Of a stretch of DNA of 64,000 nucleotides, positions 1 through 56,773 are shown piece after piece. Both the position numbers and the translations under genes were made by a program. The stretch comes from Diplonema papillatum (Eukaryota > Euglenozoa > Diplonemea > Diplonemida > Diplonemidae). The stretch is taken from positions 38,670 through 102,669 of the forward strand of contig JAPJBO010000824.1 of assembly GCA_030068145.1 (NCBI GenBank), read 5' to 3'. Under the pieces are notes generated by a model. It ran no database searches, was not told where the DNA came from, and saw only the letters and a list, made by a program, of their open reading frames with translations. Every line of letters starts with the position of its first letter. Position 1 is the first letter of the stretch.

Positions 1-3000
1 CCGTCCGGAGGCGAGTGCCTGCTCCTTCCGGCGGGCCTCCGCTTCGAGAAGGGAGGCCATGGCCTGCCGCTGGCGGAGGAGCGCTTCTTCGTGCTTGTCG
101 CGGGCGCGCTCGATCTTGGCCAGGAGCTTCTCCTGCCGGCAGTGCTCGGCGGCGTCCTGCTTCCGCTCGCTGACGACGACGCGGCCCCGGCGCTCGTCCT
201 GCTCGTCCTCGATGCGCCGCAACGACAACCGGGCAGTGGTAGACCACTTCTCTGCTTGAGACATGCGTCGCCCCTATATGGTAGTGTTTGACATCATTTC
301 GGAGGGTCAAAAAAATTTAGTAGGCTTCCTTCAAGGTAAAATTGCCTCCGCTACATCATCTCTCGTCTGCTAGCGTTATTTGTGGATTAGACGGTCGGTA
401 TTTTAAAGTCTTCGGTTGACCGTAGAGGCGTGGGTAGGGAGGAGGGTTGAAAGAGTTGAAAACACTGAGAACGTGCAGCTCGTTTCGGGCCTGCTCCCTC
501 CGGCGGGCCTCGGAGGCCATATATGGCCTGCCGCTGGCGGAAGAGCGCTTCTTCGTGCTTGTCCATGGGGCGCTTGATCTTGGCCAGGAGATTCTCCTGC
601 CGGCAGTGCTCGGCGGCGTCTTGCTTCCGCTCGCTGACGACGACGCGGCCCCGGCGCTCGTCCTGCTCGTCCTCGATGCGCCGGAACGACAACCGGGCAG
701 TGGTAGACCACTTCTCTGCTTGAGACATGCGTCGCACCTGTATGGTAGTGTTTGACATCATTTCGGAGGGTCAAAAAAAATTAGTAGGCTTCCTTCAAGG
801 TAAACTTGCCTCCGCTACATCATCTCTCGTCTTCTAGCGTTATTTGTGGATTAGACGGTCGGTATTTTAGAGTCTTCGGTTGACCGTAGAGGCGTGGGTA
901 GGGAGGAGGGTTGAAAGAGTTGAAAACACTGAGAGCGTGCAGCTCGTTTCGGGCCTGCTCCCTCCGGCGGGCCTCGGAGGCCATTGGCCTGCCGCTGGCG
1001 GAGGAGCGCTTCTTCGTGCTTATCCCGGGCGCGCTCGATCTTGGTCAGGAGCTTCCTGCCGGCAGTGCTCGGCGGCGTCTTGCTTCCGCTCGCTGACGAC
1101 GACGCGGCCCCGGCGCTCGTCCTGCTCGTCCTCGATGCGCTGGAACGACAACGGGGCAGCGGCAGACCACTGTAGGCAGACCACCCGAAGGCCGGATATT
1201 TCCTTAGCGGGAGCACTGCGCGCCTAGCACAACTCGCCTGATTTGGTAGGTTGCATGTCGTATGCTGCCAACGTTAACATAAGGAAAAGCAGACTTTCCC
1301 GGTACCTGTTGCGCATTGTTAGCAGGAAAAGCAGACTTTCCCGGTACCTGTTGCGCTTTGTTAGCAGGAAAAGCAGACTTTCCCGGTACCTGTTGCGCTT
1401 TGTTAGCAGGAAAAGCAGACTTTCCCGGTACCTGTTGCGCATTATTAGCAGGAAAAGCAGACTTTCCCGGTACCTGTTGCGCTTTGTTAGCAGGAAAAGC
1501 AGACTTTCCCGGTACCTGTTGCGCATTGTTAGCAGGAAAAGCAGACTTTCCCGGTACCTGTTGCGCTTTGTTAGCAGGAAAAGCAGACTTTCCCGGTACC
1601 TGTTGCGCATTGTTAGCAGGAAAAGCAGAGCGCGTTGTTAACACAAGAAGAAGCACAAGAAGAAGCAGTGTTTCCCAGCACCTAATACGCATTGGCGACG
1701 CAAGGAAAAGCAGAGTTTCCCGGAACACGTTGCGCATCGTAAACACAAATAAAAGCAGAGTTCACCAGTACCTGTTGCTCCTCGCGGATGCCACGGACGC
1801 GCTGCAGGGCCTGATTCTGCCGCCTGCGCAAGCTCTTCGCGACGGCCGAGGCCCGGGCTGCGTCGGAGCCGCGGCCGTGGTCGAGGATCGAGTCGCGGCG
1901 CTCTGCTTCGCGGCGGCGGGCAAGCGCCAGACGGTCTTCGATCTCCTTGATCTGGTGCAGCATCCACGCCTTGTTGTGCAGCAGCACCTGCTGCTCGGAG
2001 AACGAGCCGCAGTCGTCGAGCTCGCTCCGCGTCGGAACGTGGGCCTGCAGAACCTTCAGCCTGCGCACCAACCCTCTTTCCGCCGCCGGACCCCCCACCT
2101 CCTCCACGATCTCAAACCGCACGCGGTCGCACCTTCCTTGCTCTACGCTCTCGGTGCTCTCGTTTACTGTTTGTCCGCTCACTTCATTCCGAGTCTGTGC
2201 TGTCTCGCGCAGTCCTGTCTCATCAGGGGGCTTGATGTCCACAGGGTTCCCGTGCCCTGGTCCGAGTGTGGGAGACGTGGCTGGGTTGGTGTGGTTGGTG
2301 TGGTTGGCCTGGTTTCGGGGTTGGAGGTCGGGGGTGCCTTGGCCTTCGCCCGGGAGGCAAGCGGCGGCGCAGCGCGCCATGCTCCGCAGCGGGCGAACGG
2401 CGCGGCGCGTGACGCCGAGGGGCAGGCACTGCCGCACGGTGGCGCCGCCGGCGCAGGCGACCACGAGCAGCTTGCCGCCCTCCCGCACCGACACCGCACG
2501 CACCCGCTGCAGCCCCCGCTGCAGCCGCGCCGCGCCGCCGCCGCTGCCGCCGCCGGCCGCCGGCTTGCCGGCGGCCGTGTTCTTCATGTACAGGCCCAGG
2601 GGCTGCGTTTCGACGGGGCCGCGGTGCTTCTCGCCCCGGCCGCTGCCGTCTTTGTTGCTGTCGTTTTCTGCGCCGCTGCCGGTATTGTCGTCGTCGCTGC
2701 GACTGGCGCCGTCGTTGTTGTTGTTGTGGTTGCTGCGGTTGCTGTTGTTGATGCCGCTGCTGTTGGTGTTGTTGCTGTTGCTGCCGTCGTTGTTCTTGTT
2801 ACGGTTGCTGCGGTTGCTGTTGTTGATGCCGCTGCTGTTGGTGTTGTTGCTGTTGCTGCCGTCGTTGTTCTTGTTACGGTTGCTGCGGTTGCTGTTGATG
2901 CTGTTGATGCTGTTGTTGCTGGTGCTGTTGACGTTGCTGCTGTTGAGGTCACCGCATGCACCCTTGGCGCTGTCGTTGGCCGTGCCGCTGGCTATTCCGC

Positions 3001-4732
3001 CGGAATCTGGCAGCTCGCCTCTCGGCGACCCACCGGCTTCTTCGTCGGAGACGTCTATCCCGCACGAAGGCGCCCCGGGGCGTGACTCGCCACGATCCAC
3101 GGACACCGGAGGCTTGCTCGCACCCCGTTCCCCCGATTCATCCCGGCGCAAGCCCGCCATCTGGGTCGAGGCCAAGGGCAGCAGCACGAAGACAAGGGGT
3201 CCGACCTTCAACCGGCGCGGGTCGCCCGCCGCCCCCGCGCGCTCGGGATCCGCGAGGCCAAGGTCCGGCGCGTGGGTGCAGCTGAGGTGCGCGACGGCCT
3301 GGCTCGGGGTCAGCCACGCGGACAGGGCGGAGGGCGCCAGGTCCGCCGGCAGGATCGGTGCCAGCTGCAGCGGCTGCCGCTGCGCGGCCGGCGCCGTGCC
3401 CGGCTTCCGGGCGCAGCGCGGCGACCGCGGCTTCCGGACCGCCACGAAGCGCCGCTCGAGGCCGCCCCCAGGCTTCCCGGGGCCGGGCGCGGTAGTCCCG
3501 TCGGTCGGGCCGCCGCCTTCGCCGTCGCGCGGACTGCCGCGCGTGCCTTCCTCGCTGCTCCCGTTTTTGCCGCTGCTCTCGTCGCGTGTACTGTCGTGCT
3601 TGCTCTTTTCGTTGCTCTTCTCGATCGAGCCGTCGTGCCTGCCTTTGCCGTGGCCCTTGTCGCTTGGACTGCCGTGCTTGCCCTTTTCGTTGCTTTTCTC
3701 GCTCAAACTGTCCTTCCCACCTTCGTTGTCGCTCGCATCGCTTGGACTGTCGTGCTTGCCTCGGTGTTCGCCGTCTGCACCATCACGTTCCGCTGCTGAC
3801 GCAAAGTCGTTGGCTGGCTGTTGCTCCCGTTCGTCGCTGGCTACGGGGGATCCTGTTCGCTCAGCTCGTCGACTCGCCGGGTGACTGTTCTCATTCGCAA
3901 TGCTCCCCCGGTGTTTCTCGTCGTGGGGGCTCTTCACTCCGTCGTCGCTGTCTACATCCTCTCGTTCCCGTGAAGCAAAGTCATTGCCGGACGGATGATC
4001 CCGTCCACCGCTGACTGAAGCAGGTTCTGCATGTTCAGCTCGTCGACTCGCCGGGTGGCTGTCCTCATTCGCACTGCTCCCCCGATTTTCGTCGTGAGAA
4101 CTCTCCTCCCCGTCGTCACCCGGGTCTCCATCCTCTTTTTCCCCCGACGCAAGCTCATTGCCGGGCGGTTGCCCCCGTCGGTCGCCGACTAGGGGGGGTT
4201 CCGCCTGTCGTCGACTTGCCGGGTGGCTGTTCTCATTCGCATTGCCCCCCCGGTGTTCCTCGTGGGTGCTCTTCACCCCGCTCTCATCGCCGTCTGCATC
4301 CTCTCTTTCCCCCGACGCAAGGTTGCTGGGCGGATGCTGCTGGTCGGTGCTGGCTTGTTCTCCGGTGCTTTGATTGCCCGCTCCGTTCGCCTTCTCCTCT
4401 TTTCGCGCCGCTTTGCGTGCAATTCGGCCCCGTTGGATGGCTTGAATCCGCGTCGCCGCCGCTTGCTCGTCGGCAGTGGGTTCGGAGCGATTGCCTTGTT
4501 CCGACGTAGGATGATCCGCCGCGCCTGGACCTTCGATCCCGCCTCCGTGAGCACTCGTGCGTTGTCCCCCTGCTTGCGTCGTGTCGACAGTGGGCTGGCC
4601 TGGCGGTGGCTTTGCCGCTCTGCGGGTTGCCTTGCGCACGATCCGGCCCCGCTGCACCGCTTGAATTCGAGTGGCCGCGTCGCACTCTCTCTTCGCCGCG
4701 GGTGCGAGCGAACCAGTGCCGTCCCCGTGCAT
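1..4732 (-). CDS. IQ-motif, Asn-rich, coiled-coil protein (partial, runs off left edge)
   Basis: Exon 1 is 1772-4732 (987 codons, ATG at 4732). It ends in phase 0 at a CAG|GTACTG donor. Exon 2 is <1-249, after a GCAGAG acceptor, and keeps the frame into the window edge. Two IQ motifs, each containing the core AATRIQA(V/I)QRGRI, lie near residues 19-38 and 92-111 and predict calmodulin or myosin-light-chain-like binding. About four imperfect ~45-residue acidic repeats follow, each containing NE(N/D)SHPASRR. Next come a Ser/Lys/Asp-rich segment and an Asn-rich tandem repeat (encoded at 2690-2940). The C-terminal part of exon 1 and all of exon 2 are highly charged and helical, typical of a long coiled coil (for example QIKEIEDRLALARRREAERR). 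I do not recognise an orthologue; a cytoskeletal or flagellar scaffold is possible. The long open frames on the opposite strand here are antisense shadows. Confidence 0.75.
475..713 (-). pseudogene. Partial copy B of IQ-gene exon 2
   Basis: This is a tandem copy of exon 2 (1-249), displaced by about 464 bp, with the same acceptor region and similar intron flanks. The frame follows exon 2 through DEQDERRGRVVVSERKQDA and then loses the block encoding MASLLEAEARRK. After that it reads into non-homologous sequence ending in a stop. It sits inside the intron and would compete with the true exon 2 for the donor at 1771. Confidence 0.7.
935..1177 (-). pseudogene. Partial copy C of IQ-gene exon 2 (frameshifted)
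   Basis: This is the third and most decayed copy of exon 2. A 2-bp deletion near 1054, relative to copy A, shifts the frame just after the RQE of the AEHCRQE segment. The sequence on the acceptor side differs from that of the other two copies beyond 1173. It lies between copy B and the 42-bp repeat array in the same intron. Confidence 0.65.
1282..1617. repeat. 42-bp tandem array in the IQ-gene intron (8 units)
   Basis: Eight near-identical 42-bp units begin at 1282, 1324, 1366, 1408, 1450, 1492, 1534 and 1576. They differ mainly at one position (gcatt/gcttt). Degenerate units continue from 1618 to about 1770, where the last one overlaps the exon 1 donor. Read on the minus strand each unit contains CAACAG followed by GTACCGGG, a close copy of the true CAACAG|GTACTGG junction at 1772/1771. 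There are no unique spacers, so this is a minisatellite and not a CRISPR. Confidence 0.9.
2690..2940 (-). repeat. Coding tandem repeat for Asn/Ser-rich segment
   Basis: This is a tandem repeat of about 75-80 bp inside exon 1 of the IQ gene, rich in gttgttgct on the plus strand. It encodes repeats of the form NRSNRNKNNDGSNSNN followed by TNSSGINNS. The frame is kept throughout. It is likely a disordered linker prone to length variation. Confidence 0.8.
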
Positions 4733-6600
4733 CGCACAACACGGGCCCCAGCAGAGCCCAGCTGACCGCTTCCTCTTTTTCTTTTTTTCTTTTTACACCT
4801 GTAGTATAGTATTATACCAGGGCCCGAGCTTGACCTGGCGAGTTTTTGGCCAAACTCGGTCAAAGTCGCAGTGGTAGTCTAAAACTAGCACGCAACGTTA
4901 CCAGTAACGCCTCCCACAGCAGCTGGCAGTAGCTGGGAACCCCAGCTGCACACGCTGCTCTGTTCACTGTGCATCAACCCGTCTCAGATCGCACAGCGCC
5001 CTGTCACAGTGCTTCATGCAGAAGTGTGGCTTCGGAGCGCCGGTTCTGCCTGCCGAGGCTGGCCAGATCCGAAAAATGAGGTTGAAAAATTCTTGTCGAC
5101 CAAAATTTAGAGTTCCAAGCAAGATTGTTTTGACTGGTTACGATACTGGGTCACAAAGAGGAAGCAAAAGACGCACACCAAATGTGACATAAATCTGCTA
5201 AAACACCAGATTGGGAACCAAATTTGCAGCACCAACTTGTGTTGTCTTACTGGCTTGTTGAGGGGCTGCTCTTGCTATCGATCTCCAGTGCTGCACAGCA
5301 TTGCGACAAGCAAAGTATTCCTCCAGCAACGCGTAGTGCAGCCTCCTTGCTACAAAGAGTGTGCATCTTCACTAGTTGCTTCGGCCCCTATCATCCATAC
5401 CAGTTTAAGTTTTTCAAATAAATTTGCAAAAGGAGTCAAAGTTGTCAGCCAGACCCAACGGGGGCTGAGAGGGTCCTCCCTCCAGCTCCCAGGCCGAGGT
5501 TGCTGGACCCAGTTCCCCCCCCCAAAAAGAACTCTCCAAAAACTCAGAATCATAGTTTTTTTTTGCTGGCCGAGTTTACATGCACAAGCTCGGCCACTGG
5601 TATAGGTACCAGGGAAAGCCTGCTACACGGGAGCCAAGGTTCACGTGTTCGGCGGTACTGCAGAGCCACGGGCCTACGGGTCAAGTGGCTACCGGTTTCC
5701 CAAACTAAAACATCAAGGCTTGGTGCACCTTGGGGCTTGGCGCTCGCGCTGAACACAAGCTCGTCGAGACGAGGGCAGAGCGGACGGGGTTGTGGCGCTG
5801 TACTGCCTCCGACTCAAGCTTTGCAAGATGTGGTTGACCGTCACGTTCCTGGACCAGGAGCGGCCTTTTTATTTTTCTTGGTAAAAGTTCGCTTGATAAT
5901 CCGGAGAAGTCGGAGGTGTGCGTTCTTCGTAGTCGTAGAGAATCCTACCGCAGGGAATTGACTCTATAGACCACTTGAGCATTGGGGGCAAGCAAGTGCG
6001 AGCGCCATGAAGACAAAGACACGCGCTGCTCAAGGGCTGGTGTTACGTCGTCTGTCGGAAGAGTCAACGCTGATGGAGGATTAGCCGCACGCTGTGCCGC
6101 ATATGGGGCTTATGAACGTGGCGGGTGCTTTCGTATAAGGCTGCTAAAACTTGGTCCCAACATGGTCCCTCTCCTGCTCTCTCCTTCTCTCTCGAAATTG
6201 TCGGCGCGGTAGCGATGACAGCGAGAACACATATAGGTCGAGTCCCTGGGTCTGCTAAGGCGTGTCAACCACACCCTTTGACTTGTTTTATGCGTTCTCT
6301 CTATCTGCAGGTCTCACTGCACGCTTCCACTTATGTTTCGGCCTTCAATTCCCCGTTGATGTTCGCTGCTGAGTTGCAGGGATCGAAGGAAAGCCAAAAG
6401 CAATCATGTCCGTGACACATTTGGCGAGTGTAAAACTGGGCGGCAGTAAGACTTGGACTGAACGGGAGATGACCTCTTAGAAAAGAGGCCACAGGCCGAC
6501 GACGATACGAGCGGGGAGATGGACATACCGCAAGGCAACAGAACATTCTGGTTATGAACTACGCTGGAAACGAAGTGTTTACTTGTGTCCAGAGCCGGGG
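4733..6600. other. Intergenic, no gene seen
   Basis: This stretch lies upstream of the IQ gene. Short open frames show no family resemblance. A pyrimidine tract at 4770-4796 precedes the gene on the opposite strand and is not obviously functional. The only recognisable item is one copy of a ~260-bp dispersed repeat at 5606-5862. Confidence 0.5.
5606..5862 (+). repeat. Dispersed repeat family D, copy 1
   Basis: A block of about 260 bp starts at GGTACCAGGGAAAGCCTGC and ends near GACCGTCACGTTCCTGG. The same block occurs at 39716-39985 in the same orientation and at 48376-48644 inverted. It has no ORF and no obvious terminal inverted repeats. A non-autonomous short element is the simplest reading. 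Confidence 0.75.
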
Positions 6601-6624
6601 GCCCTCTGGCAGCTGCCAGCTTCT

Positions 6625-6832
6625 TCTTTTTCTTGCTTTTAACGAACGGTCTAAACGGCGTGTCGTCCGGCATGGCCAGGGCGCTCTAAGCAGGGCCGCG
6701 GGGTGGCCAGTGACTGCAGGCGCTGCCTGATCGGGGTGTACTCTCGTGCCATGAGGGCGCGCAGGATAGCTGCAGTTGGTGGGTGCGGGCCTTCGAGGAG
6801 CACACACAGGGAAGTGGCGGTAGTCTTTCTTA
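6625..6832 (-). pseudogene. Decayed copy 0 of F5/8-C gene 3' end, distal half
   Basis: This segment is homologous to the last ~65 codons of the gene ending at 8138, including the tail that encodes KSKKKKK. It carries many substitutions and indels and is the most diverged of four copies. The matching proximal half is at 7084-7280. The two halves are separated by an insertion of about 250 bp. Confidence 0.7.
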
Positions 6833-7083
6833 GATTTGCCCATTCGGTGCCTCAAAATGTGTCACTTGCAGGATTCGTTTTTTTGTGTTTCCGACGATCC
6901 CGAATGGACGTACATATTGGTGTCTTTCGACCTTTTGTATGCTTGTGAAGTTCAGCTTAAAAGTAGTAGTAGTTTTTCCTTTTTTTTTTTGAACCCGAAA
7001 AAGTCGCATGCAGGACTCGAACTCACGACCTTCGGACCTTCCTCTGTATTGTGACTGTGACATCCACATTTGGACGGTGGACC
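6833..7083 (-). mobile_element. Possible tRNA-derived SINE-like insertion
   Basis: This segment interrupts copy 0 of the F5/8-C 3' end. Read on the minus strand it contains GAGTTCGAGTCC (7006-7017), close to a pol III B-box, and further on a run of ten A (complement of 6980-6989). Part of the rest, including GTTTCCGACGATCCCGAATG, recurs at about 26430. No convincing A-box or tRNA fold was found, so the SINE label is tentative. Confidence 0.4.
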
Positions 7084-7280
7084 TAGTAGTGGCCTAAGGG
7101 GAGCTCTCAGGCTTCCTCGAGGCAAGGCAGGGGCCAGATTCCGCAGTTCCGCTTCCGGAGCAGGTCCCAGTCCCAGCCGGTCCATCGACCCTTCAAACCG
7201 CAAGGAGAAGCAACAGAACTTGTTGTGGCTATGAAAGGCGCTGGAAACGCAAGCCGGGGAGGCCCTGTGACACACAGCTG
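7084..7280 (-). pseudogene. Decayed copy 0 of F5/8-C gene 3' end, proximal half
   Basis: This is the continuation of the copy interrupted at 6833-7083. It matches the start of the terminal unit (RFEGSMDRL region) and the same flanking sequence, AGAACTTGTTGTGGCTATGA, that separates the other copies. Confidence 0.7.
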
Positions 7281-7703
7281 CTACTTCTTCTTTTTCTTGC
7301 TTTTGACGAACGGTCTAAACGGCGTGTCGTCCGGCATGGAGAGGGGGTCGCCCGCGAAGCAGGGCCGCGGGGCGGCCATTGACTGCGGGCACTGCCGTAT
7401 CGGGGTGTACTCCCGCGCCATGAGGGCGCGGCCGTACACTTCGAAGCACGACAGCTGCAGCTGGTGGGTGCCGACCGTGTTCGGGCCCTCGAGCAGCACG
7501 CGGAAGTACCGGTAGTAGTGGCCCAGGGGAAGCTCGCGGGCCTCCTCGAGGCACGGCAGGGGCCAGTACCCGCAGAGGTTGTTTTTCGGGAACGTTTTGT
7601 CGCCGGAGCAGGTCCCAGTGCAGCCGGTCCATCGACCCTTCAAACCGCAAGGAGAAGCCACAGAACTTGTTGTGGCTATGAAAGGCGCTGGAAACTCAAG
7701 CTG
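7281..7703 (-). pseudogene. Tandem copy 1 of F5/8-C gene 3' end
   Basis: This is a near-identical copy of the final ~125 codons of the gene at 8138-10468, including the stop and KSKKKKK tail. An 11-bp deletion near 7600, relative to copies 2 and 3 (it removes the bases encoding the RRHV segment), breaks the frame. It has no coding sequence upstream. It is a 3'-end fragment left by tandem duplication. Confidence 0.85.
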
Positions 7704-8137
7704 CTACTTCTTCTTTTTCTTGCTTTTGACGAACGGTCTAAACGGCGTGTCGTCCGGCATGGAGAGGGGATCGCCCGCGAAGCAGGGCCGCGGGGCGGCC
7801 ATTGACTGCGGGCACTGCCGTATCGGGGTGTACTCCCGCGCCATGAGGGCGCGGCCGTACACTTCGAAGCACGACAGCTGCAGCTGGTGGGTGCCGACCG
7901 TGTTCGGGCCCTCGAGCAGCACGCGGAAGTACCGGTAGTAGTGGCCCAGGGGAAGCTCGCGGGCCTCCTCGAGGCACGGCAGGGGCCAGTACCCGCAGAG
8001 GTTGTTTTTCGGGAACGTTTTGTCGCCGACGTGCCGGCGGAGCAGGTCCCAGTGCAGCCGGTCCATCGACCCTTCAAACCGCAAGGAGAAGCCACAGAAC
8101 TTGTTGTGGCTATGAAAGGCGCTGGAAACTCAAGCTG
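7704..8137 (-). pseudogene. Tandem copy 2 of F5/8-C gene 3' end
   Basis: This 434-bp unit is almost identical to the true gene end and its frame is intact through LRRHVGDKTFPKNN to the stop. It lacks the upstream 650 codons. It starts at the same breakpoint as copy 1, where the gene reads LSWRFEG and the copies read SLRFEG. Confidence 0.85.
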
Positions 8138-10468: not shown

Positions 10469-10576
10469 TTCGTCTGCGGGTGTGCCGTGCGTTGCGGAAT
10501 TAGCGAAAGTCGCAAAAGAACATTTCCGGAGTTGGGGCTTGCACTGATAAACGAAGCAACGGACGATCAGCATCAA

Positions 10577-11700
10577 CTGACCAAAGGTGATGAAAATGAT
10601 AAGGCAAAAGTTTCTTGTTCTTCGCGTGTACAGGGTATAAACCTCTCTGGGGGGGGGGAAAATCTTAGTTTAATGTTTAGGCAGAGCACTGCCTCTCATG
10701 CATGGTTGATGCTAGCATCAAGTCTTCTTCGAGGAAGATGTCGTCTAGGAAAGGGATGCAAAATAGAAAGGGGGGGGGGGGGGGGGGTTCCTGTATTAGC
10801 ACTTTTTCGTTGGCTTCGTTTTCTCTTTCATGTGCAACCGTTGTTCCGGTAATGTTCCCGTCAGTACAGATGTACTATTAAAAAAAAAAAAACAGAAACA
10901 AGAGCTCGTCACTCGCACAACCGCGGCTGTTACAAAACTAAAGATGATGATGATGGGAAGAGAGAGTTGTTTTCGTTGAACGCAGTGCCGTTTTTTTACG
11001 TAAAGCTGGATTCAGGACGCAAGTGAAAACGCCACGGTTTGCGGCGGCGAGCTTCTCGTTTCCTCCAACATTTCATGTTTGGTAAATAAGAAATGACAGG
11101 AATTAGGAATTCTGATCAACCACCAAAAGACGCTGCCTGCGTCTCTTTAGCCTGCACAATACATTGCGCAAAAAGAAGATCGTTTTACCACGAAAGGAAC
11201 TCCTCGGGGGGTGGGGATTGCAAGACGGAATGGTCACCACCGCTAGTCCTGTCTGCACCGTGTTTCGGTCTTCTAAGCCACGGACACATGAGCGAACCCT
11301 CATCAGAGCGAAACCTCAGTATCTGCAGACTGTGAATTTGGGTTGTCATGCGGCTGTTCGTAGCCATCACAGCCAGGACCACTCATGCTACCAGAGCACA
11401 CAGGAAAATCCGAGAAGGCCCCTACGCATCTGAGCAATCAGATACAAAACTCGGGGCGCCGGCCCTGCTTGTGACTGCGACCGGCTAGTGAGGGGCATCT
11501 TGATTTGATGTCTAGGCAGAACCGTGACACGTCGCGGGAGAATCGCCAGGCAGTTCTATGCAGCTCCAAGAGATAGGGATGGTTTGGGTTAGAATGCAAC
11601 CTCAGTGGCGATAATCTGCACCGCCGCCGGCGCGGTTTTCTCTATAGGGATCGACCTGGTAGACCATGGTGGTAGTTGGTAGTGATGGGCCGTGCTTTAC
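10577..11700. other. Intergenic with dispersed repeats, no gene seen
   Basis: It contains a copy of repeat family J at 10658-10770 (also at 49262-49379 and 52703-52799, with the palindrome TGATGCTAGCATCA and the hairpin TCTTCTTCGAGGAAGA). It also contains a G homopolymer at 10771-10787 and a degenerate copy of family H at about 11205-11420. No coding signal is visible. Confidence 0.5.
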
Positions 11701-11747
11701 AGCGGCACGCAATGCCATGCGTTCCCGAGAAAGGGAGCTAACCGTTG

Positions 11748-12048: not shown

Positions 12049-12162
12049 AAATTACCCTTCCTTTCCCCCAAAGTGACTTCACTGGGTTGTTCCTCCAACC
12101 CCTTGGTGAGACCTTTTCTTCCATCTCGCAAGTTACCATGTATTCGGTTGATTCATGAATGC

Positions 12163-16882: not shown

Positions 16883-16941
<59 letters not shown>

Positions 16942-18106: not shown

Positions 18107-18162
18107 TCTCCACACCCAACGCTATGCTTTTCGTGTTCCCCCTCTGCGTTTCTTAGCATTAA

Positions 18163-18950: not shown

Positions 18951-18980
18951 CTAGTGTTCGACGCTAGCTGCGCTTTCGAC

Positions 18981-43025: not shown

Positions 43026-43058
<33 letters not shown>

Positions 43059-44030: not shown

Positions 44031-44062
<32 letters not shown>

Positions 44063-47000: not shown

Positions 47001-49118
47001 TCAAGACAAGGAGACCTCAACAATGTGATGTCGACAACAACTCTGGTTGCTCCATGGTATTGCTTTTAATGCTTGAACAATGGTCGAAAACACGCTTCAC
47101 AACAAGTGCTCCGCCACTGTGCCCGCAACTTCTCCAGCTGCGACTTCTTGTGTTTTCTTCTCACGATTTCCTCTGCCACAGCTCGTTTCGTGGAGCTGGC
47201 GGCTAGCATTCAATTGCCGCTGACTTAAGAGGCACCGGCATTTTGAGTGTTGGCCTCGGGGCCGCCTTTGCAGGTGCATTATTAGGTTGCAGGCTCTCTG
47301 GATGGCAGGTACGTCCGCGAGCCCTTGGAATCTAGCGAGCCCAGCGACAGCGAGTCAAGGAGACCTACTCCACAAATAACGCTAAAAGCACAGGCAAATC
47401 CGGTTTCCGAGTTCACAAACAGCTTTGAAAGCCTGCATCCACGAACAGCCGAAACGAACTGTGGCAGTGAAGGCAGAGGAGGAAAGGAAAGTTCACTACA
47501 CAGAGGAAGCAGCAGCTGGAGAAGTTCGGAGGCCCAGTGGTGGTGAAATGCGCCGCGGAAGCCTCGGAGACGACCTAAAACGTTGATTCCTGCCGGTTTC
47601 TCATGTGTTCAAGCATCCCGTACTGTGAGTAACCTCATTCTCGCATATTCTCACGTGCGAGAATATGCGAGAATCATACGAGAATTGCGAGAATATGCGA
47701 GAATTTTGCGAGAATCGGGGCCGCGACCCCCCAAATACGAGAATACGCGAGAATACGAGTCGTATCGGATGTATGCCTAGGGGGAAAAGCGTACGGACGA
47801 AAGGCGAGGGGGCCCTCCAGGAATGAATGACATCTGGTGAATCACTCGGGCAAGATCAAGAGTCTTGTCCCCCAAACGCAGTACTGGACGACCAGCATTG
47901 TTCTTCGCGTGCACAGGCTACGAACCTTTCTGGGGGAAAAGGTTTACCTGAATTGGCACTCGGGCGGCACAGCTGTCACCTGTCACACGTTCTAAACCAA
48001 GCTCAGCGGGAACAGAAACCTCGCGTAGAGCATAAGGGGTAACGCTTGCACGATACACAATCTTCCGTACCGATCTTCGGTTTAAAGAGATGACGCCGGA
48101 GGTGACAGAAAGACTACGACAAAGTGTCTGCCACGAACGTGTCGCCTCAGGCCTCGGGCGAGGGGTAAAAGTACTAGGATTTCTCGGGCTTGCAACGGGG
48201 GAATAACCTAGTACAGTCGTCGTCGGAATGTGTCAATCTTCGAGTACAGTCGTCGTCAGAATAGTGTCGATCTTCAAGTACAGTCGTCGTCGGAATAGTG
48301 TTACTCTTCGAGTACAGTCGTCGTCGGAATTTGTGTTAATCTTCTCGTACAGTAGCGAGAGAGAGAAAGGCCGCCAAGGGTCCAGGAACGTTGACGGTCA
48401 ACCACAGCTAGCAAAGCTTGAGTCGGAGGCTGCACAGTGCTACAACCCCGTCCGCTCTGCCCTGTGGCTGACCGTCTCGACGAGCTTGTGGTCAGCGCGA
48501 GCGCCAAGCCCCAAGGTGCGCCACGCCTTGATGCTTTAGTTTGGGAAGTCGGTAGCTACTTGACCCGTAGGCCCGTGGCTCTGCAGTACCGCCGAACACG
48601 TGAAGCTTGGCTCCCGTGTTGCAGGCTTTCCCTGGTACCTACGTACAGTAGCAACATGAAAGAAGAAGAAAAGGTGTGTACCGTGCATGGTAGCTCTCAT
48701 GGGCGGCTATGTTGTCGCGTACGAGGCTGACGGAGTCGGACCAGTGCGGGATGTCGAAGGTGATGTCGCCGCGGAGCTTGGTTTGAGGGCAGGTGAACTT
48801 CACGACGGGCACGCGGGCAGTCGAGACGACCGCGGTCGTGAGGAGGCCGCCCTTCTTGAAGGCCCGCGCGACCTTGTCGAGCATCTTCTCCCTCCCTTCC
48901 TTGACGCCGAGGACCACGAAGTCGATATCGCTGCTCGGCAGTGCGAGGTGCGTTGCCCAGCTACCATAGATCTCAACCGTGCAGCTTGGAAACACCTGCC
49001 TCACAAGCCGCTTAGTCTTCTTGATCAGCTCCTGCCGCGACAGCTGCTCTGGTGGCGTTAGCTCTAGGCTCGTTGCCGCGGCCGACAGTTCTTCGCCCAA
49101 TGCATCATAAAGGCTCAT
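42677..49118 (-). CDS. TRF4/PAPD5-type non-canonical poly(A) polymerase with polyQ tail
   Basis: Five exons join in phase to 1070 aa: 48682-49118, 46562-46712, 45908-46049, 45270-45361 and 42677-45067. Exon 1 (ATG at 49118, MSLYDALG) holds the nucleotidyltransferase motif YGSWATHLALPSSDIDFVV (Gly52-Ser53, Asp64 and Asp66). The third acidic residue is in RGDITFDI (Asp118). Exon 2 gives LILKLVLVLTSNN and GGLSSYGLCLM. Exon 3 continues with VFAYLRR and GELFAGFLDHY. Exon 4 has the signature WCVQDPLNSTNN, and exon 5 opens with TEQCFCFSDISETFKDMY. This is the PAP/TUTase core in family order. TRF4-class enzymes add short A tails to nuclear RNAs for exosome turnover. The rest of exon 5 (about 700 residues) is Gln-rich with poly-Gln, a poly-His run and a KKKKK stretch near the end. 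Donors are GTACAC, GTATGC, GTATGC and GTATGT. The exon 4 acceptor choice is the least certain. Confidence 0.85.
42900..44180 (-). repeat. CAG/CTG-rich polyglutamine-coding tract
   Basis: Many runs of CTG on the plus strand encode glutamine runs in the TRF4-type protein. There is a GTG run at 42987-43009 that encodes poly-His. The longest Gln tracts are near 43030-43060 and 43960-44080. The frame is kept throughout. Confidence 0.9.
46761..47783. mobile_element. 1-kb foldback/TIR transposon in TRF4 intron 1
   Basis: The left end CCCTAGGCATACATCCGAT (46761) and the right end, its exact inverse (47765-47783), delimit 1023 bp. Both terminal regions (to about 46860 and from about 47625) continue with GCGAGAATATGCGAGAAT-type sub-repeats in inverted orientation. 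The interior has no transposase-like frame; the 73-aa frame at 47325 is unremarkable. The CCTAGG at each end is itself palindromic and could be the target duplication. The element lies about 50 bp before exon 2. Confidence 0.85.
48211..48355 (+). repeat. ~35-bp tandem repeat in TRF4 intron 1
   Basis: About four imperfect units contain GTACAGTCGTCGTCGGAAT and TCTTCGA. It is intronic, with no coding role seen. Confidence 0.85.
48376..48644 (-). repeat. Dispersed repeat family D, copy 3
   Basis: This is an inverted copy of 39716-39985. It ends about 40 bp from the exon 1 donor of the TRF4-type gene. Confidence 0.8.
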
Positions 49119-49129
49119 CCCCGCACGGC

Positions 49130-50460
49130 TCAACGAGCACACGCACCCTCCAGAGCCAGGAGAGAGTACGGATGCTGCTTGAGAGGTGGGGGGGGGGGAA
49201 GGGGGCCCAGGATACACACCGTCTGTTTATCTTCTCTTTTCGTGTTCCTGTTGTTGTATGGGGGGGAAAATCTTAGTTTACTGTTTAGGCAGAGCACTGC
49301 CTCTCATGCATGGTTGATGCTAGCATCAAGTCTTCTTCGAGGAAGATGTTGTCTAGGAAAGGGATGCAAAATAGAAAGAGGTAAAAAGGGGTAAAAAGGG
49401 GAGTTGACGGCTCCCAAAGTGGGGTATGAAACCTTGAGGGACTAGTCCTCTTTATTGTTTTTCACCGCGGTGTTGTGTGCACCTCGTTCTTCGTCTCGGG
49501 TTTCGCTCGTGAACGCAGACCAATCCAGAGTTAGAGCTCATCAGTGGGTCCTTTGGACGGGGACTTTCGGTCCTGTTCCGGTGCTATCACAACTTTCTGG
49601 TTTCATTGTTCGTCGCATCCTTCCTTCGTAAGTTAAAAAAGGGGGTCGGGTTTTGTTGTGGCTCGTAACCAACCGCCACGGGGCACTGCTTTCACTTAGT
49701 GAAAGTGTTTACACCTTCTCAAGGGAGACGATGTAGCCATTCGAGACGAACTTGCTGGCACAGGGGGATGGGGATACTGCAAGAACGCGCTTGGAATGGA
49801 TATGTGCTCAACACCGCACTGGTCCCGCCTGCGCCGTGTTTCGCTATCATCAGCGCGGGACCTGAATGTCTGCAGACAGGACAGCGGTGTGAGTCTGGCT
49901 TGTCAGGCGGCTGTTCGTAGCTCGTCACAGCCAGGACCACCCGTGCTACTAGTTAAAAAACTCGGGGCCGACGTGCCGTGGCGCAGCTTTTCTGCCAGAA
50001 TTCGCTGCTTCCGCCGTGTTGTGTGCGCACGTTGCTGAGACACGAACGGAAACGAAAATGACTTCTCTTTCCCTTCGTTTTTTTTTTTTTTTTTACAGGA
50101 GCACCGCGCCGTGGAAAGCAAAGCCGGTGACGTGGGGGCCGTGTTCAACACAACAAGACTGCTCATTTTCTCGCGCGGCCAACCGTCGGCACACATTCAT
50201 TCCGCCCGCAGAGTCGCCGCTGACACGGCCACCCGGATGGATTTGGGCACCTTTCGGCCTCAGAATACGGTATAGGTCGCATACACACAATTTGCCAGAA
50301 TCGTTCTGCCAAAACCTTCCCCCTCTTGGACATCCGCATGTAGGACGAGCTTGCTGGCCATGGCCTGTGGTGTCGTTGTGAAGGACATTTTCTGTCCCCT
50401 GTGAGATCTTGCCTTCGTGTGTGCGACCCGCGTTCGACTTCCTCCCTGATTGTCTTTCTC
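49130..50460. other. Intergenic between TRF4-type gene and CFAP70, no gene seen
   Basis: It contains a family J copy (49262-49379), a mobile-element fragment (49430-49755) and a family H copy (49776-49952). An inverted AT-rich stretch surrounds a T run at 50078-50094. Frames at 50163-50828 on the minus strand are out-of-frame readings of the CFAP70 3' copy and its flank. Confidence 0.5.
49430..49755 (-). mobile_element. Mobile-element fragment with UCH-like remnant, copy 2
   Basis: It shares CATGAAACCTTGAGGGACTAG-type text with 53870-54382 and, at its other end, the minus-strand frame SNGYIVSLEK followed by a stop. The central part present at 54250-54382 is missing here. A third relic is at about 36765-36935. 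Confidence 0.55.
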
Positions 50461-50464
50461 AGCC

Positions 50465-50881
50465 CAAAGTGCCCATGTGTTGTTGGGTATTGGGGGGGGA
50501 GGGGTGGCCAGCCCGCGAAGAAAAAGCAAGGCTTGCGGCTTGTTTGCACTGAAAAAGGTTGCCGAGGGGGAATGGCACGAGACTCTCTATTATTCGAGGT
50601 ACTTGGCCATGGTTTCCAGCATCTCGCGCGCCTTCGCGCGGTCGGGTTCGTGGGGGGAAGCGTCGACGACGGCCGTGAACTCGCGGGCGGCCTCGTCGTA
50701 GCGTTTGAGGAGGAGCAGCGCGTTGGCGAGCATGAGATGGACCTTCGGGGCATCTTTAACGTGGAGAGACCGGGAGAGGGCGGCTTCCGCGAGATGGACC
50801 CGATTGCTCCGCAGGTAGTCAGCCCCAACCTCCGCGGGTGGTGCGTGGTTGGGAAGGCCGAGGCTAAGACCTGGTGGAAGA
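50465..50881 (-). pseudogene. Copy of the 3' end of CFAP70
   Basis: 50588-50881 repeats the last ~95 codons and stop of CFAP70 (51066-51360) at high identity. It then breaks off. The flank AAAGTGCCCATGTGTTGTTG at 50468 recurs between copy and gene at 50919, so the unit is a tandem duplication of about 450 bp. Confidence 0.85.
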
Positions 50882-50959
50882 GTGCCTTCTCAGGTCAGGG
50901 ATTCTGACCAACCTTCAAAGTGCCCGTGTGTCGTTGGGTATTGGGGAGAGGGGGCGATC

Positions 50960-51058
50960 ACGAACGGGGGGGGTCGGTCCTGCATATGACTTTGTAGGCT
51001 CTCCCGACTCCCCAAATCGTGGTTAGCACAAATTCAAGAGGTCTAGTCAACTATTCCC
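50960..51058 (+). mobile_element. MITE-like family E, partial copy next to CFAP70 stop
   Basis: It matches the right half of family E (GGGGGGTCGGTCCTGC to CAACTATTCC) and ends 8 bp before the CFAP70 stop codon. The 3' UTR or polyadenylation region of CFAP70 must therefore lie within or beyond this element. Confidence 0.7.
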
Positions 51059-51065
51059 TGCAGTA

Positions 51066-54000
51066 TTATTCGAGGTACTTAGCCATGGTTTCCAGCATCT
51101 CGCGCGCCTTCGCGCGGTCGGGCTCGTGGGGGGAAGCGTCGACGACGGCCGTGAACTCGCGGGCGGCCTCGTCGTAGCGTTTGAGGAGGAGCAGCGCGTT
51201 GGCGAGCATGAGATGGACCTTCGGGGCATCTTTAACGTGGAGAGACCGGGAGAGGGCGGCTTCCGCGAGATGGACCCGATTGCTCCGCAGGTACTCAGCC
51301 CCAACCTCTGCGAGGAGTGCGTGATCGGCAAGGCCGAGGTTAAGCGCCTGGTGGAAGGCCTGGTCGGCCTCTTCGTGCCGCGATTTCCCGTCGGACCGGC
51401 GGAGGCACACCAGCGTGACGTAAGCCCAGGTCTTCGGGTTCAGGTTGTTCAGCAGGTTGCTCTCGTTCAGCGCCTGCTCCGCGTGCTCGTAGCGCTCGAG
51501 TCGATAGCACGAGATGCCCAAACCCATCCAGGTCACCCCGCACGGCCACTTCCTCGCCGCGAGCACAAACGCGTCGGCAGCGTCCGAATACCGCCCTAGG
51601 GCGCTGTACAGGTTGCCCAGCCGTGCGTACACCTGCCCGGGGACCTGGGCCTCGTCGATTTCCATCGCCGCCGTGTAGTGGTCACGCGCGAGGACGCATG
51701 CGTCCATGCAGTGCTCCGACCCGTCGGGCTTTGCGACCGCGACTTCGCCCTGCCCCATGGCGGAGTAGACGTCGCCAAGCAGGATGTGGAGTTCGGCGGT
51801 GGGGACCCCGTTGAGCTTCACCGCCTCCTCCAGGCGCTCGCGCGCTTTGTCGTTCTCCTTCATTTGGAACTGCATCCGGCCTTCCACCACGAGCGCGCGC
51901 ACGGCCGAGCCGCCGGCCGCCCGGTTGACGTTGTCGATGCAGTGCTGCGTGAGCGGTTCTAGGTGAAGATCCAGGGTCACACCGGCGAGCTGAAGGTCGA
52001 GAGACTCCGGCGCCGCGGCAACCGTGCCCCCACCTTCGGCGGAAGCGCGTGCGGCTTGGGTGCGGGCGTGTTTACCCCAGTGCCTGTGTTCATCTTGCTG
52101 CTCCGGCGTTTCGGCCGGGTGGAGGAGGGCTACTTCGAAGTACAGCGCTAGGGCTCCCCAGGCGAGTGGGGAGGACATGTCGGCGTCGACGGCTGCTTGG
52201 AGGAAGACTTCGGACTCCTTCAGCCGCCCGTTGCAGAGGAGGAGCAGGCCGTAGCCGAGGAGGGAGGGGACGTGCGCCATTTCGATGGCGAGGGCCTCTT
52301 TGAAGGCCTGCTCGGCCTTGATCCCGTCGCGGATGCGCAGGCAGTACCGGGCGTAGTCGCCCCACGCGGCGGGCGACTCCTGCTGCCCGCCGGCAGCCGC
52401 CGGCGCGTGGACCAGCCGCTCTTGGTGGAACCGCTCGGCCATCGCTTCCTCCTGCACGGCTTCCGCCTCGGTCGCCAGCCGCAGCCACTTGTCGTTTCGG
52501 TCCTCGTCGGGTTTGAACGCCGCCGGCCCGAGCTCGTCCCTGTGGGTTTGTTTCGCTAGATAGGTGTCGTTCGACAGGTTATACTTTTTTTTTCGGTTGA
52601 CAACTTGTGTCAGACTAGGGTGGTTCTTATTTAGAGTTGTCGTTCGCTTGATATTTATGTATTCGCGAAGTTCAGCTGCGTGGTTGTGGATTTTCTGGGA
52701 TGACAATCTTAGCTTAATTTGTAGGCAGAACACTGCCTCTCGTGCACGATTGGTGCTGGCATCAGGTCTTCTTCGAAGAAAGATGTTATGCAGAAAGGGG
52801 GGAGTTTTCGTTGTATGTCTAGGCAAGACACTGCTGCCGGGAGCCTCCCGGACGAGGCCCGGCCGCACGGGTTTGGGGCCAGGCTAGTGGCCCTCGAGAA
52901 GAGAAGGACGGGGGTCTCCGGCCCATCGCCTGTGGAGAGGTCCTGAGGAGGATGGCGGCCAAGATCTTGGCCAGGGACAAGTCCGTGGTGCAGGCGGTCA
53001 AGCCCATCCTGGAGAGGTGCGGCCAGACCGGGGTCGGGATGAAGTCCGGCGCCGACGCCATGGTCTGCGCGATGCGGTGCGTGGGAGAGGCGTACCGGCG
53101 CGACGGCCAAGGGCGGGGGATCCTGAAGGTGGACCTGCAGAACGCCTTTAACAAGGTGAGCAGGGAGGCCATCTTGCAGGCAGTGGCCGAGAGCGCCCCA
53201 GGCCTCCTGCCATACGCGATAGCGGCGTACGGGCGCAGGTCACGGCTTTCCTTCGGGGAGGAAGTGGTCTGGTCCGAGTGCGGAGTGCAACAGGGGGACC
53301 CACTCGGGCCGTTGTTCTTCTGTCTCGTGTTGGAGAAAGTCCTGCGGAAGGTGGACTTGTCCCTGGCCGGGCGGCTGCCAACGTTTGCTGTTTTTTTTCG
53401 CGGTAGATCACGGTCGCAATGGGTTGCACCCGCTAAATTAAGGTGTCGCAGGGAAACACGTCATCTGAACTGGCAATGTAGCTCTGACCCGGCGTCCAAG
53501 AAAGGAATGCGTAGTTTTGTTTTATTCTTTTACTTTTTTGTATTGAGGTGTCATTCAGATGTAAATCCAAAGCCGCACACGTCATATTTTGTTAAGCAGC
53601 GGCTGCCAAAACTTGCCGTGACACCTGTGAAAGTGAAGGAGGAAAGGAGAAAAGGTTTCTAAAAAAGAAAGGAAACAAAGTACTTACCGAGACAAGGCTT
53701 TGTTCAGCGTGAAGTGCATCTGATCCAGCAAGTAGACGTACAGTTCGTTGTAGAATCTTTCCATGACCGCCCTGCGAGTGAGTTTAGTTTGACCGACGGC
53801 TTACCTATAATAGGGGGGGCACTCCCACGCACAAGACGAGCTAATGAATACTGCACCCCCGACGAACCATGAAACCTTGAGGGACTAGCCCCGGGGATAC
53901 TTTCACCGGGGTTGTGTATCCCTCGTTCTTCGTCTCAGATTTCGCTCTTGAACGCAGACCAATCCAAAGTCAGAGCTCATCAGTGGATCCTTTGGATGGG

Positions 54001-55836
54001 GATTTTCAGTCCTGTTCCGGTGCGAGCACAACTTGGTTTTGTGTGTTTCTCCTTCTCACAGTTTCACTGAGGGAGTTGATGCACCACGAAAGTCGATTAG
54101 AGAACTTCACACAGCCTTCAGGGTGTGGTTGGTTCAAAGAAAAAATCAAGTTTTAAAAAAAGGAGAGGGTTTGGATGCATGTGTGGCTCGTAACCAACCG
54201 CCACGGGGCATCACTTTCAAGGAGTGAAAGTGTTTAAGCTTTCTCCAGGGAAACGATGTAACCGTTTGTTGTGAACTTGATGGGGACACTTGCTGGTCGT
54301 CGTAACACACCCAGTCATTGTTTTCTCGCAGCACGGTGTACGCATGTACTTTCCCTGTGTGGACAATGAAGCCAGTTACCATGTAAGGGGGAGAGAGGTT
54401 TGAGAGGAAATGCAGACTTGGAGGTCCCCGGCTTCTTCGCGAACTTCTCCTTGACGATGCGGACGATGCAGTGCTTCAGCTTTTCGCGGTGGGCGTACGA
54501 CCGGCCGGAGCTTGAGAGGAAGTGGAGGAAGGTCTTGCGGTGGTCCTCCGACGCGTCGAACGGCGGCCGCGGGACTAGCGGGTCGCTGGCGTCGGGGCCC
54601 TCCCCCTGCTGCTGCTGGGCGGAGAACTGCCTGTAAGTCTGCGACGACGGAGCCGACGATTTCGAGCACGTCGTGGCCGAACGCCTTCGTCGCCTCCATC
54701 GCGACCTGCGCCGGCTTGACGCGCGCGGGGATGATGTCGGCCGGCACGATCGACGGCTTCAGCCGCTTCCCCGGCAGGGTTACGAGCGGCCTCTCGAACG
54801 AGACCCGCACGCACAGGCACGTCGCCCGCGCCTCGTACGGGTGCACCTTCTCCCCCGCCGGCCCTGCTGCCACCGGCTCGTCCTCGGCGGAGAGGAACGC
54901 GGGCGGTGCCACCGCGCCTTTGGCCGGCTTTTTGGGCGGCGGCTTCTTCCCTTTTTTGTCGTCGGCCTTCGCCGCGGGGTCCTCTGACGGGGCCAGCGGG
55001 AGGCAGTACACGAAGGTGGTCGTTCCGGGCTCGGCGAACGGGAGCAGCGGGAACTGGCCTTTCGAGGTGTAATACGCCTCGTTCGCGTCCTCCCAGTCGG
55101 GCTGCACCTTCGCGGGGTTCAGCGCCCGCCGGATGGTGAACTGCAGGCAACCGGTCGACGGCGTTTGCTCGACGGCTTGCTCGAGGAGGTTTTGGACGTG
55201 GGTGCTGGCCTTCGCGGGGAGGGGGAAGGTCCGGCTGTGGGTCGGCTGCTCGTAGGCGGCGTCGAGGGGGGGTGCGGGCGGGTCTTGGGCTTCGGGGGGA
55301 TCGTGCGTGTCCGGGGTGGAGTACCAGATGACGGCTGTTTGGGGGGTATCGAAGGATTGGGCGGACGAAGAAGCGCTGGCCGCGGTTTGCAACGCGGAGG
55401 AGGCTTCGGGGGCGGCGGACGCGGGGCTGGCGTCGTTGTCGCTGGGTTCCGGGCGGGCGACGGTTGACGGGACGCCGACGGCGGCGCTGCCGCTGTCGCT
55501 CTCGGCGCCGGTTCCAGCTCCGGGGCCTTTTATCTGCGCGGCAAGCTGCGCCGAGACCTGCCGGAGCCGGCCTCCTTTGAAGCAGTGTGCCTGCAGCAGG
55601 GTGGCCCCGCCGTCATCGCCGGCTGCTTCCTCCCGCAGGGCCACGTCCAGTTCCCACTGGAACAGGTTGTCGCGGTAGTCGGGCGGCTCCCCGGAGTCCG
55701 CGTGGCACCAAGTCTGGGGGAGGTTCTTCACCCAGAGGGCGTCGACGGTCAAGCTGTTCACCGGCGGGTCTTCCGGCTCGGCGTCGGGCGCCGGCCCCGC
55801 GGTTTCTTCGGGCGGTGGTTGCTGGCTGTCGTCCAT
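51066..55836 (-). CDS. CFAP70: CFAP70 (TTC18), ciliary axoneme TPR protein
   Basis: Three exons give about 991 aa: 54418-55836, 53688-53771 and 51066-52539, with matching phase-2 junctions (AA|GTCTGC, CG|GTAAGT). The start is the ATG at 55836 (MDDSQQPPPE). Exon 1 carries the N-terminal region (RALNPAKVQPDWEDANEAYY; CLCVRVSFERPL; KAFGHDVLEIVGS) and then HREKLKHCIVRIVKEKFAKK. Exon 2 encodes MERFYNELYVYLLDQMHFTL. Exon 3 is an array of TPRs (RYCLRIRDGIKAEQAFKEAL; ALGRYSDAADAFVLAARK). This order is characteristic of CFAP70, which in other flagellates is associated with the axonemal central-apparatus/outer-dynein region and motility. One extra base near 54635 shifts frame between the two halves of exon 1. 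Introns hold a reverse transcriptase fragment and a UCH-like fragment. Partial copies flank both gene ends. Confidence 0.85.
52703..52799 (+). repeat. Dispersed repeat family J, copy 3
   Basis: It shares CTTAG(C/T)TTAAT, GCAGA(A/G)CACTGCCTCTC and the TCTTCTTCGA(A/G)GAAGA hairpin with 10658-10770 and 49262-49379. It lies in CFAP70 intron 2, immediately before the reverse transcriptase fragment. Confidence 0.7.
52830..53389 (+). pseudogene. Non-LTR retrotransposon reverse transcriptase fragment
   Basis: Plus-strand frames give, in order, a LPDEARPHGFGARLVALEK-like start, then (after a frameshift near 52895) GGLRPIACGEVLRRMAAKIL. These are followed by KVDLQNAFNKVSREAIL (first catalytic Asp block) and CGVQQGDPLGPLFFCLVLE. 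These are conserved RT blocks of LINE-type elements. The YxDD block, endonuclease and 3' end are absent. Homology stops near 53389, where unrelated repeat sequence begins. It lies antisense in CFAP70 intron 2. Confidence 0.85.
53870..54382 (-). pseudogene. Mobile-element fragment encoding a UCH/USP-like C-terminal box
   Basis: The minus-strand frame from 54382 reads GFIVHTGKVHAYTVLREN then DWVCYDDQQV. This resembles the His box and Trp...Asp-Asp motif near the end of ubiquitin-specific proteases. A shift of frame then leads to IKFTTNGYIVSLEKA and a stop. Flanking text recurs at 49430-49755 and 36765-36935, so this is a repeat-borne fragment and not a CFAP70 exon. It lies in CFAP70 intron 1. 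Confidence 0.6.
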
Positions 55837-56035
55837 TTTGTCTTCTCTGTTAGTTTAGAGTCTTTTCGACCCCTTCTCCTTTCCTTCTGTTATAGAGTTG
55901 AGGTTCGCTTGAGAATCTGGGATTTTAGAGTCTCCGAAAGACTGTCGTCAAATGAGTTCTTTAAAAAGCAGCAATGTTTTGTAAGTATCTGAGTCTTCTC
56001 GGACCCAAATCCCCCTGGAACAGGTTGTGGCGGTA
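55545..56035 (-). repeat. 491-bp tandem unit 1 (CFAP70 promoter and first ~95 codons)
   Basis: The unit runs from GCTGCGCCGAGACCTGCC to the same text at 56036. It contains the CFAP70 N-terminal codons, ATG at 55836, upstream region and a family F-like element (GAGGTTCGCTTGAGAATCTG at 55898-55917). This unit belongs to the complete gene. Confidence 0.9.
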
Positions 56036-56526
56036 GCTGCGCCGAGACCTGCCGGAGCCGGCCTCCTTTGAAGCAGTGTGCCTGCAGCAGGGTGGCCCCG
56101 CCGTCATCGCCGGCTGCTTCCTCCCGCAGGGCCACGTCCAGTTCCCACTGGAACAGGTTGTCGCGGTAGTCGGGCGGCTCCCCGGAGTCCGCGTGGCACC
56201 AAGTCTGGGGGAGGTTCTTCACCCAGAGGGCGTCGACGGTCAAGCTGTTCACCGGCGGGTCTTCCGGCTCGGCGTCGGGCGCCGGCCCCGCGGTTTCTTC
56301 GGGCGGTGGTTGCTGGCTGTCGTCCATTTTGTCTTCTCTGTTAGTTTAGAGTCTTTTCGACCCCTTCTCCTTTCCTTCTGTTATAGAGTTGAGGTTCGCT
56401 TGAGAATCTGGGATTTTAGAGTCTCCGAAAGACTGTCGTCAAATGAGTTCTTTAAAAAGCAGCAATGTTTTGTAAGTATCTGAGTCTTCTCGGACCCAAA
56501 TCCCCCTGGAACAGGTTGTGGCGGTA
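56036..56526 (-). pseudogene. 491-bp tandem unit 2: CFAP70 promoter and 5' coding copy
   Basis: It is essentially identical to unit 1. Its ATG at 56327 opens a 145-aa frame that follows CFAP70 through GGRLRQVSAQL and then reads into the promoter of unit 1 (stop at 55890). If transcribed it could give a truncated N-terminal protein or provide an alternative upstream promoter for CFAP70. Confidence 0.85.
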
Positions 56527-56773
56527 GCTGCGCCGAGACCTGCCGGAGCCGGCCTCCTTTGAAGCAGTGTGCCTGCAGCAGGGTGGCCCCGCCGTCGTCG
56601 CCGGCTGCTTCCTCCCGCAGGGCCACGTCCAGTTCCCACTGGAACAGGTTGTCGCGGTAGTCGGGCGGCTCCCCGGAGTCCGCGTGGCACCAAGTCTGGA
56701 GAAGGTTCTTCACCCAGAGGGCGTCGACGGTCAAGCTGTTCACCGGCGGGTCTTCCGGCTCGGCGTCGGGCCC
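56527..56773 (-). pseudogene. Partial tandem unit 3 of CFAP70 5' coding sequence
   Basis: It has a few substitutions relative to units 1 and 2 (for example KNLLQT in place of KNLPQT). It breaks off after the codons for DAEPEDPPV, so it lacks its own start codon and promoter. Confidence 0.85.

Follow-up and report, generated by a model that had tools for sequence, protein, structure and literature searches.

Why do several genes in this stretch of the Diplonema papillatum genome stand beside truncated tandem copies of their own ends, and is a process directed at gene boundaries needed to explain them? The window, that is, the whole stretch of 64,000 nucleotides that was analysed, covers bases 38,670-102,669 (the end) of the 102,669-bp contig C824, in a genome of 271 Mb and 2910 contigs. 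Coordinates with the prefix w are window positions, and those with the prefix C824 refer to the whole contig.

Coding loci of the window and their partial copies

The coding scan placed almost all predicted coding of the window on the minus strand. Together with self-comparison it gave about eight coding loci in the 64 kb, five of them with partial copies alongside, at lags of about 430-590 bp and with 75-99% identity. The preliminary description had counted five of six genes, so that its five stand and its total was too low. One gene can be firmly named with good support, CFAP70: in a PDB search its C-terminal part was matched by chains of CFAP70 and FAP70 with solved structures (E 5.7e-37 and 1.5e-20), and the domain search added a TPR match. 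Less remains of the other names proposed earlier. The HGH1-like gene has a single Pfam match, DUF383 (E 0.0065), which falls short of the family's cut-off, and the IQ, F5/8-C and coiled-coil genes gave no Pfam match at E 0.01 in the pieces scanned.

The window also holds a reverse-transcriptase fragment (Pfam RVT_1, w52901-53377), on the opposite strand between the two coding parts of CFAP70, a fragment of a mitochondrial poly(A) polymerase-like nucleotidyltransferase (Pfam PF22600, w48702-49049), a lone match of 81 bp to eukaryotic LSU rRNA, in its 5′ part (Rfam RF02543, w45601-45681), and two minisatellites, one of 25 bp (w20303-20564, 10.5 copies, 100% matches) and one of 42 bp (w1282-1629, 8.3 copies, 97%). 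A kinase search of the genome gave 133 matches, with the best candidates scored, and a search for the dinoflagellate spliced-leader pattern that tolerated one mismatch found nothing.

Outside CFAP70, the arrays of the window consist of the following features:

w1-264, minus strand: intact start-codon end of the IQ-like open frame (ATG at 264-262), which runs outside the window to C824:38115
w370-489, unstranded: short sequence ahead of the IQ-like start codon, with a repeat at w832-953 and partial matches in other loci
w490-831, minus strand: second copy of the IQ-like 5′ end, ATG kept
w954-1171, minus strand: third copy of the IQ-like 5′ end, truncated (self-comparison)
w6611-8143, minus strand: copies of the F5/8-C 3′ end, two near and at least one decayed; intact end at about w8144-8524
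w12793-13793, minus strand: two direct copies (w12793-13220 and w13374-13793, 91%) straddling the edge of the predicted coding segment w12247-12981
w17832-18269, minus strand: intact part of the HGH1-like 5′ exon, with a promoter-like motif at about w18163-18270, 57 bp upstream of the coding start
w18392-19540, minus strand: two more copies of the HGH1-like 5′ part, with further motif matches
w20589-21301, unstranded: two direct copies, lag 435, 89%, without predicted coding

Self-comparison recovered all the arrays listed in the preliminary description. The IQ-like array (w17-1171) has three copies at a lag of 472 and 93% identity. Its unit had been taken for an internal exon; it is in fact the start-codon end, with the ATG at w262-264, and the other end of the same frame is copied too, with two copies of the 3′ end just outside the window (C824:36871-38545). 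In the F5/8-like array (w6611-8524; lag about 430, 93%, the outer copy 75%) three copies are good and one or more have decayed; in the two nearest the stop codon is preserved and the frame largely so, one of them having an indel near its start. The array at w12793-13793 has a lag of 581 and 91% identity. The three copies of the HGH1-like array (w17832-19540) include two that carry deletions and are 90-98% identical to the intact one. In each array the copy with a continuous reading frame is probably the ancestral one.

Two further coding loci of the contig lie outside the window: at C824:29367-30641 there is one copy of each end, and at C824:15344-15946 one edge is copied, upstream. With the IQ-like frame and CFAP70, the former makes three coding loci on C824 that are copied at both ends. 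No such array was found between 21.3 and 42.9 kb of the window, its middle part, which is rich in repeats. Direct local duplicates are far more numerous than inverted ones, and coincidence as a source of the copies is excluded, in agreement with the earlier view that they are too regular for chance.

Structure and local origin of the CFAP70 arrays

At CFAP70 both ends are copied:

w50588-50880, minus strand: downstream of CFAP70, a partial copy of its 3′ end (self-comparison)
w50958-51068, unstranded: next to the CFAP70 stop codon, a dispersed element whose length is about 110 bp and whose ends are nearly constant
w51064-51357, minus strand: intact CFAP70 3′ end, parent of the 3′ copy (self-comparison, domain and PDB matches)
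w55544-55836, minus strand: intact CFAP70 5′ end, parent of the 5′ copies; the ATG begins at 55836
w55887-55952, minus strand: promoter-like motif some 51 bp ahead of the CFAP70 start; a repeat of it lies another 491 bp upstream
w56010-56036, unstranded: 27 bp at the 5′ copy junction, 93% identical to exon w55652-55678
w56035-56525, minus strand: second copy of the CFAP70 5′ unit, ATG and promoter-like motif kept
w56526-56775, minus strand: third copy of the CFAP70 5′ end, truncated (self-comparison)

By self-comparison the 5′ array (w55544-56775) has a lag of 491 and an identity of 99.5%, and the 3′ array (w50588-51357) a lag of 476 and 96%. That copies decay with distance, as the preliminary description held, was seen in the CFAP70 5′ array (99.5 then 98.4%), in the IQ-like array (92.9 then 89.3%) and in the HGH1 and F5/8 arrays. 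Its statement that frame or start is gone from most copies goes too far. CFAP70 copy 3, in which the first 14 codons are absent, and the HGH1 copies with their deletions fit it; IQ copy 2, the two F5/8 copies and CFAP70 copy 2, whose start codon and frame are intact with zero changes over 295 bp, do not. The 27-bp piece at the 5′ junction looks like a clear mark of templated filler, at this one junction.

What do the copies carry with them? The promoter-like motif was found by an iterated profile, for which the HGH1 upstream sequence was one of four seeds, and it has 26 occurrences in 302.7 kb. In six cases, at four loci and in two array copies, a coding start on the same strand follows 51-91 bp downstream of the match, where 0.43 such cases would be expected. 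Independent motif loci are CFAP70, L015 and the gene at C824:32327; the HGH1 match, as a seed, is not one. The motif may be a promoter. It also occurs within dispersed repeats. Other sites are:

C824:32932-32995 (L012:2932-2995) and L015:5195-5264: promoter-like motif, with coding starts 51-73 bp downstream

CFAP70 copy 2 thus has both its own start codon and its own motif. An origin of the copies from mRNA or cDNA was judged unlikely, because the HGH1 and CFAP70 5′ copies include sequence from upstream of the start codon, with the motif.

The sequences between copies raise another possibility, namely that the copies are long target-site duplications made by a small mobile element inserted between them. 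Dispersed or promoter-like sequence does lie between copies at w370-489, w832-953, w50958-51068 and w55889-55966, and similar inter-copy sequence was seen in L013, L015, L024 and L027. The element of about 110 bp at w50958-51068 is present in at least 38 other places, 93-95% identical, among the matches listed in the genome search. However, in the one array tested it fills only part of the spacer, w50881-51063, and 39 bp of the CFAP70 3′ spacer are found again beyond the copy. At HGH1, CFAP70 5′ and L015 the intervening sequence is promoter-like, stands in gene orientation and lies 51-73 bp upstream of the coding start, and several other spacers have no detected dispersed repeat. For the promoter-like sequences and the partial fill of the spacer we set this explanation aside as quite improbable.

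Substitutions in the copies were compared for ten usable pairs with changes (the L027 row had the wrong frame and was left out, and CFAP70 copy 2 has no substitutions). Pooled, 61 of 85 substitutions are nonsynonymous, where about 0.76 would be expected (range 0.71-0.80), in rows that share history and are not independent. The single counts are 13/17 and 12/15 for IQ, 2/2 and 10/12 for HGH1, 6/9 for w12793 and 3/3 for L015; four of the ten comparisons fall below expectation, with tiny numbers (F5/8 3/6 and 3/5, CFAP70 3′ 7/12, CFAP70 copy 3 2/4). The pooled substitutions look close to the unconstrained expectation; the preliminary description had suggested that the copies might feed new exons, promoters or small RNAs.

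Genome searches were done with the CFAP70 5′, CFAP70 3′ and F5/8 arrays, the best 40 candidates being scored for each, and with the off-window stretch C824:28550-30000. For the coding parts of the first three, the only match outside C824 among the best 40 candidates was in contig C1137, which is identical to both CFAP70 arrays (1601/1601 and 821/821 bases) and, within the same number of candidates, has no match to the coding part of the F5/8 array. The remaining matches are short dispersed stretches within the queries, and C824:28550-30000 matches itself only. All four arrays tested, three of them in the window, are therefore of local origin. Judged by the offset of the matched stretches, C1137 appears to overlap the last 16.7 kb of C824 (w47320-64000).

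Could the assembly have made the copies? The near identity of the CFAP70 5′ copies (99.5%) would allow it, but most other arrays of the window differ by 3-25%, and both CFAP70 arrays recur exactly in C1137. The latter is apparently a redundant contig, agreeing with the arrays and not certainly independent, as the same reads are possible. Since the coding parts copied in the three window arrays searched match, among the best 40 candidates, only here and, for CFAP70, in the identical overlapping contig, a simple assembly error is very improbable.

Short direct duplications elsewhere in the genome

If such arrays surround these genes, we can ask how common they are elsewhere. Arrays were counted if the lag was 150-1500 bp, the length 100 bp or more and the identity 75% or higher. 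By this rule the 64 kb of the window contain 11, the remaining 38.7 kb of the contig 10, and a sample of 20 random 10-kb loci, 200 kb in all, 22. At 78% identity and with the contig joined there are 39, from which 5 transposon-internal and 6 simple-repeat arrays were removed, leaving 28: 16 on C824 and 12 in random loci. Per 100 kb this is 15.6 on C824 against 6.0 in random loci, a difference that would be expected, the place having been picked for this feature. Both filters, and a variant in which three minisatellites were dropped, were set after the data were seen. Short direct duplications are thus a background feature of the genome, and sampling supports the idea of the preliminary description that local duplication acts across it. 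At L009:227-5133 there are neighbouring, partly similar reading frames, which we take to resemble a retroelement with a tyrosine-recombinase-like part.

Seven of the 12 arrays kept from the random loci touch predicted coding. Five or six of these resemble outward copies of a coding-segment edge:

L015: outward edge copy at a SAM-domain gene (translation, domain search)
L017:609: outward edge copy at a cyclin
L017:6877: outward edge copy at an unnamed frame
L027: outward copy of the end of an acyl-CoA dehydrogenase gene
L030:6807: outward edge copy at an ABC-transporter gene

The possible sixth is the L024 array, whose outer copy precedes a coding segment; the L021 array is a repeat inside a frame. 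Among the 19 coding-touching arrays the copy number is 1.27-1.91 in 11, 2.44-2.51 in three and 2.01-2.11 or 2.94-4.69 in five. As these are often not whole numbers, spacers or truncations must be common.

The position test used sequence that the preliminary description had not covered, the random loci and C824:1-38669 (238.7 kb), with 9 of the 21 arrays on its own contig. Of the 21, 9 straddle the edge of a coding segment, 4 are wholly inside coding and 8 are non-coding, while random placement (two-interval statistic) expects 2.3, 5.3 and 13.4, respectively. At a coding cut-off of 30 bits the straddling excess has P 0.0000 in 4000 draws (<0.001) and the non-coding count P 0.015; cut-offs of 25 or 40 bits, or removal of the three minisatellites, gave similar results. 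The coding scan is rough (a reversed-sequence control gave 43 segments above 35 bits against 76 real ones), and two of the four training segments of its model contained stops, in a wrong frame, before self-training.

A focus on gene or exon boundaries, as proposed earlier, is thus visible in the pooled unseen sequence and fades in the random loci alone. There, with a simpler null, 4 of 12 arrays straddle against 1.9 expected (P 0.097), or 4 of 9 against 1.1 without minisatellites (P 0.0145), and the 20 unfiltered arrays divide into 13 with no coding, 4 mixed and 3 fully coding. Counted per base in random loci, duplication covers 7.7% of the sequence far from coding, 11.6% of that within 1 kb of it and 9.1% of coding itself, while on C824 the three values are 5.2%, 30.5% and 27.5%. 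The enrichment at gene edges, from a small sample partly on the same contig, is suggestive and not established.

Gene ends might be duplicated preferentially, if breaks in open promoter or terminator chromatin were patched from the adjacent gene end. The straddling excess agrees with this, as do its presence in both young (at least 93% identity; 4/10, P 0.016) and old (5/11) arrays, the three loci of C824 copied at both ends, and the longer periods of coding-touching arrays (median 476 bp, n=19, vs 242 bp, n=9). Against it stand the straddling result and the weak per-base count in random loci alone, filters and cut-offs picked post hoc with much of the sample from one contig, and a G+C content of 67% in coding vs 53-55% elsewhere, which could bias formation or detection; we hold it unlikely. 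Differential survival is another possibility, which we entertain tentatively. Here duplications would arise evenly, and pairs with a conserved exon copy would diverge more slowly and be less erased by transposon turnover, as follows by reasoning from neutral theory; the lack of such arrays in the repeat-rich middle of the window agrees. However, young pairs are enriched much like old ones, and random-locus sequence far from coding is still duplicated at 7.7%.

Origin of the arrays and comparison with known systems

From the observed copies, with their positions and identities, and the similar arrays in random loci, the most probable reading (about 0.72) is that ordinary short local duplications, made by break repair or template switching, have accumulated in this genome. 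Faulty repair of DNA breaks or replication template switching would duplicate local stretches of a few hundred bp. Where such a stretch crosses a gene edge, geometry alone would keep the gene intact and place a truncated copy outside it, upstream if the 5′ edge was crossed and downstream if it was the 3′ edge; selection would not be needed. Later rounds and small insertions could turn some pairs into arrays of 2.5 to 3 copies, which then decay. The 27 bp of nearby exon at the CFAP70 5′ junction are what template switching, or end joining with templated filler, would be expected to leave.

Three observations fit this reading less well. Many arrays, young ones included, have non-whole copy numbers (1.3-1.9, 2.4-2.5), so that plain tandem duplication needs an added insertion or deletion. 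In the four F5/8 and CFAP70 comparisons named above, nonsynonymous changes fall short of expectation, on tiny numbers. Position-blind duplication also does not predict the coding-edge enrichment in unseen sequence, which young arrays show too. This over-representation may be due to edge-biased breakage, to longer survival of pairs with a conserved parent or to G+C content. In this lineage, a repair process acting again and again at promoters and terminators might copy gene ends outward and leave a sizeable share of genes with truncated copies, of promoter plus start or of the gene's end, that could serve as spare promoters or upstream frames; this seems to us rather unlikely. Remnants of whole-gene tandem duplicates are also unlikely by reasoning, as 3′ pieces should then remain next to the 5′ end.

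Should the enrichment at edges hold across the genome, the arrays would form a natural record of duplicating breaks relative to genes. The copies, many and graded in age, would also tell the birth and loss rate of truncated gene ends. If it fails, they still warn that annotation in such genomes may collect many false exons.

A narrow search of the open literature found no title on gene-end-focused partial tandem copies; several known systems resemble parts of the picture. In nematodes and flies, incomplete copies are frequent among the young duplicates of genes (PMC3449122). Those were made through DNA, as the copies here probably were, whereas the units here are a few hundred bp long, directly beside the parent and often limited to a gene edge. 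Fill-in synthesis at breaks yields small tandem duplications (PMC8355091). The likeness lies in direct local duplication, for which a break-repair origin is probable here; there the duplications are small and insertions below 100 bp, while ours are 100-600 bp, often with a spacer between copies. Filler DNA at breakpoints has been described in flies (PMC4056370), and there, as with the 27 bp at CFAP70, a nearby stretch appears to be copied into the junction; in our arrays one junction shows it clearly. At the grapevine gene VvmybA1, a 408-bp promoter duplication is tied to berry colour (PMC7464560). Like the 5′ arrays described here it is a duplication of a few hundred bp at a gene's promoter, and the effect on colour belongs to VvmybA1.
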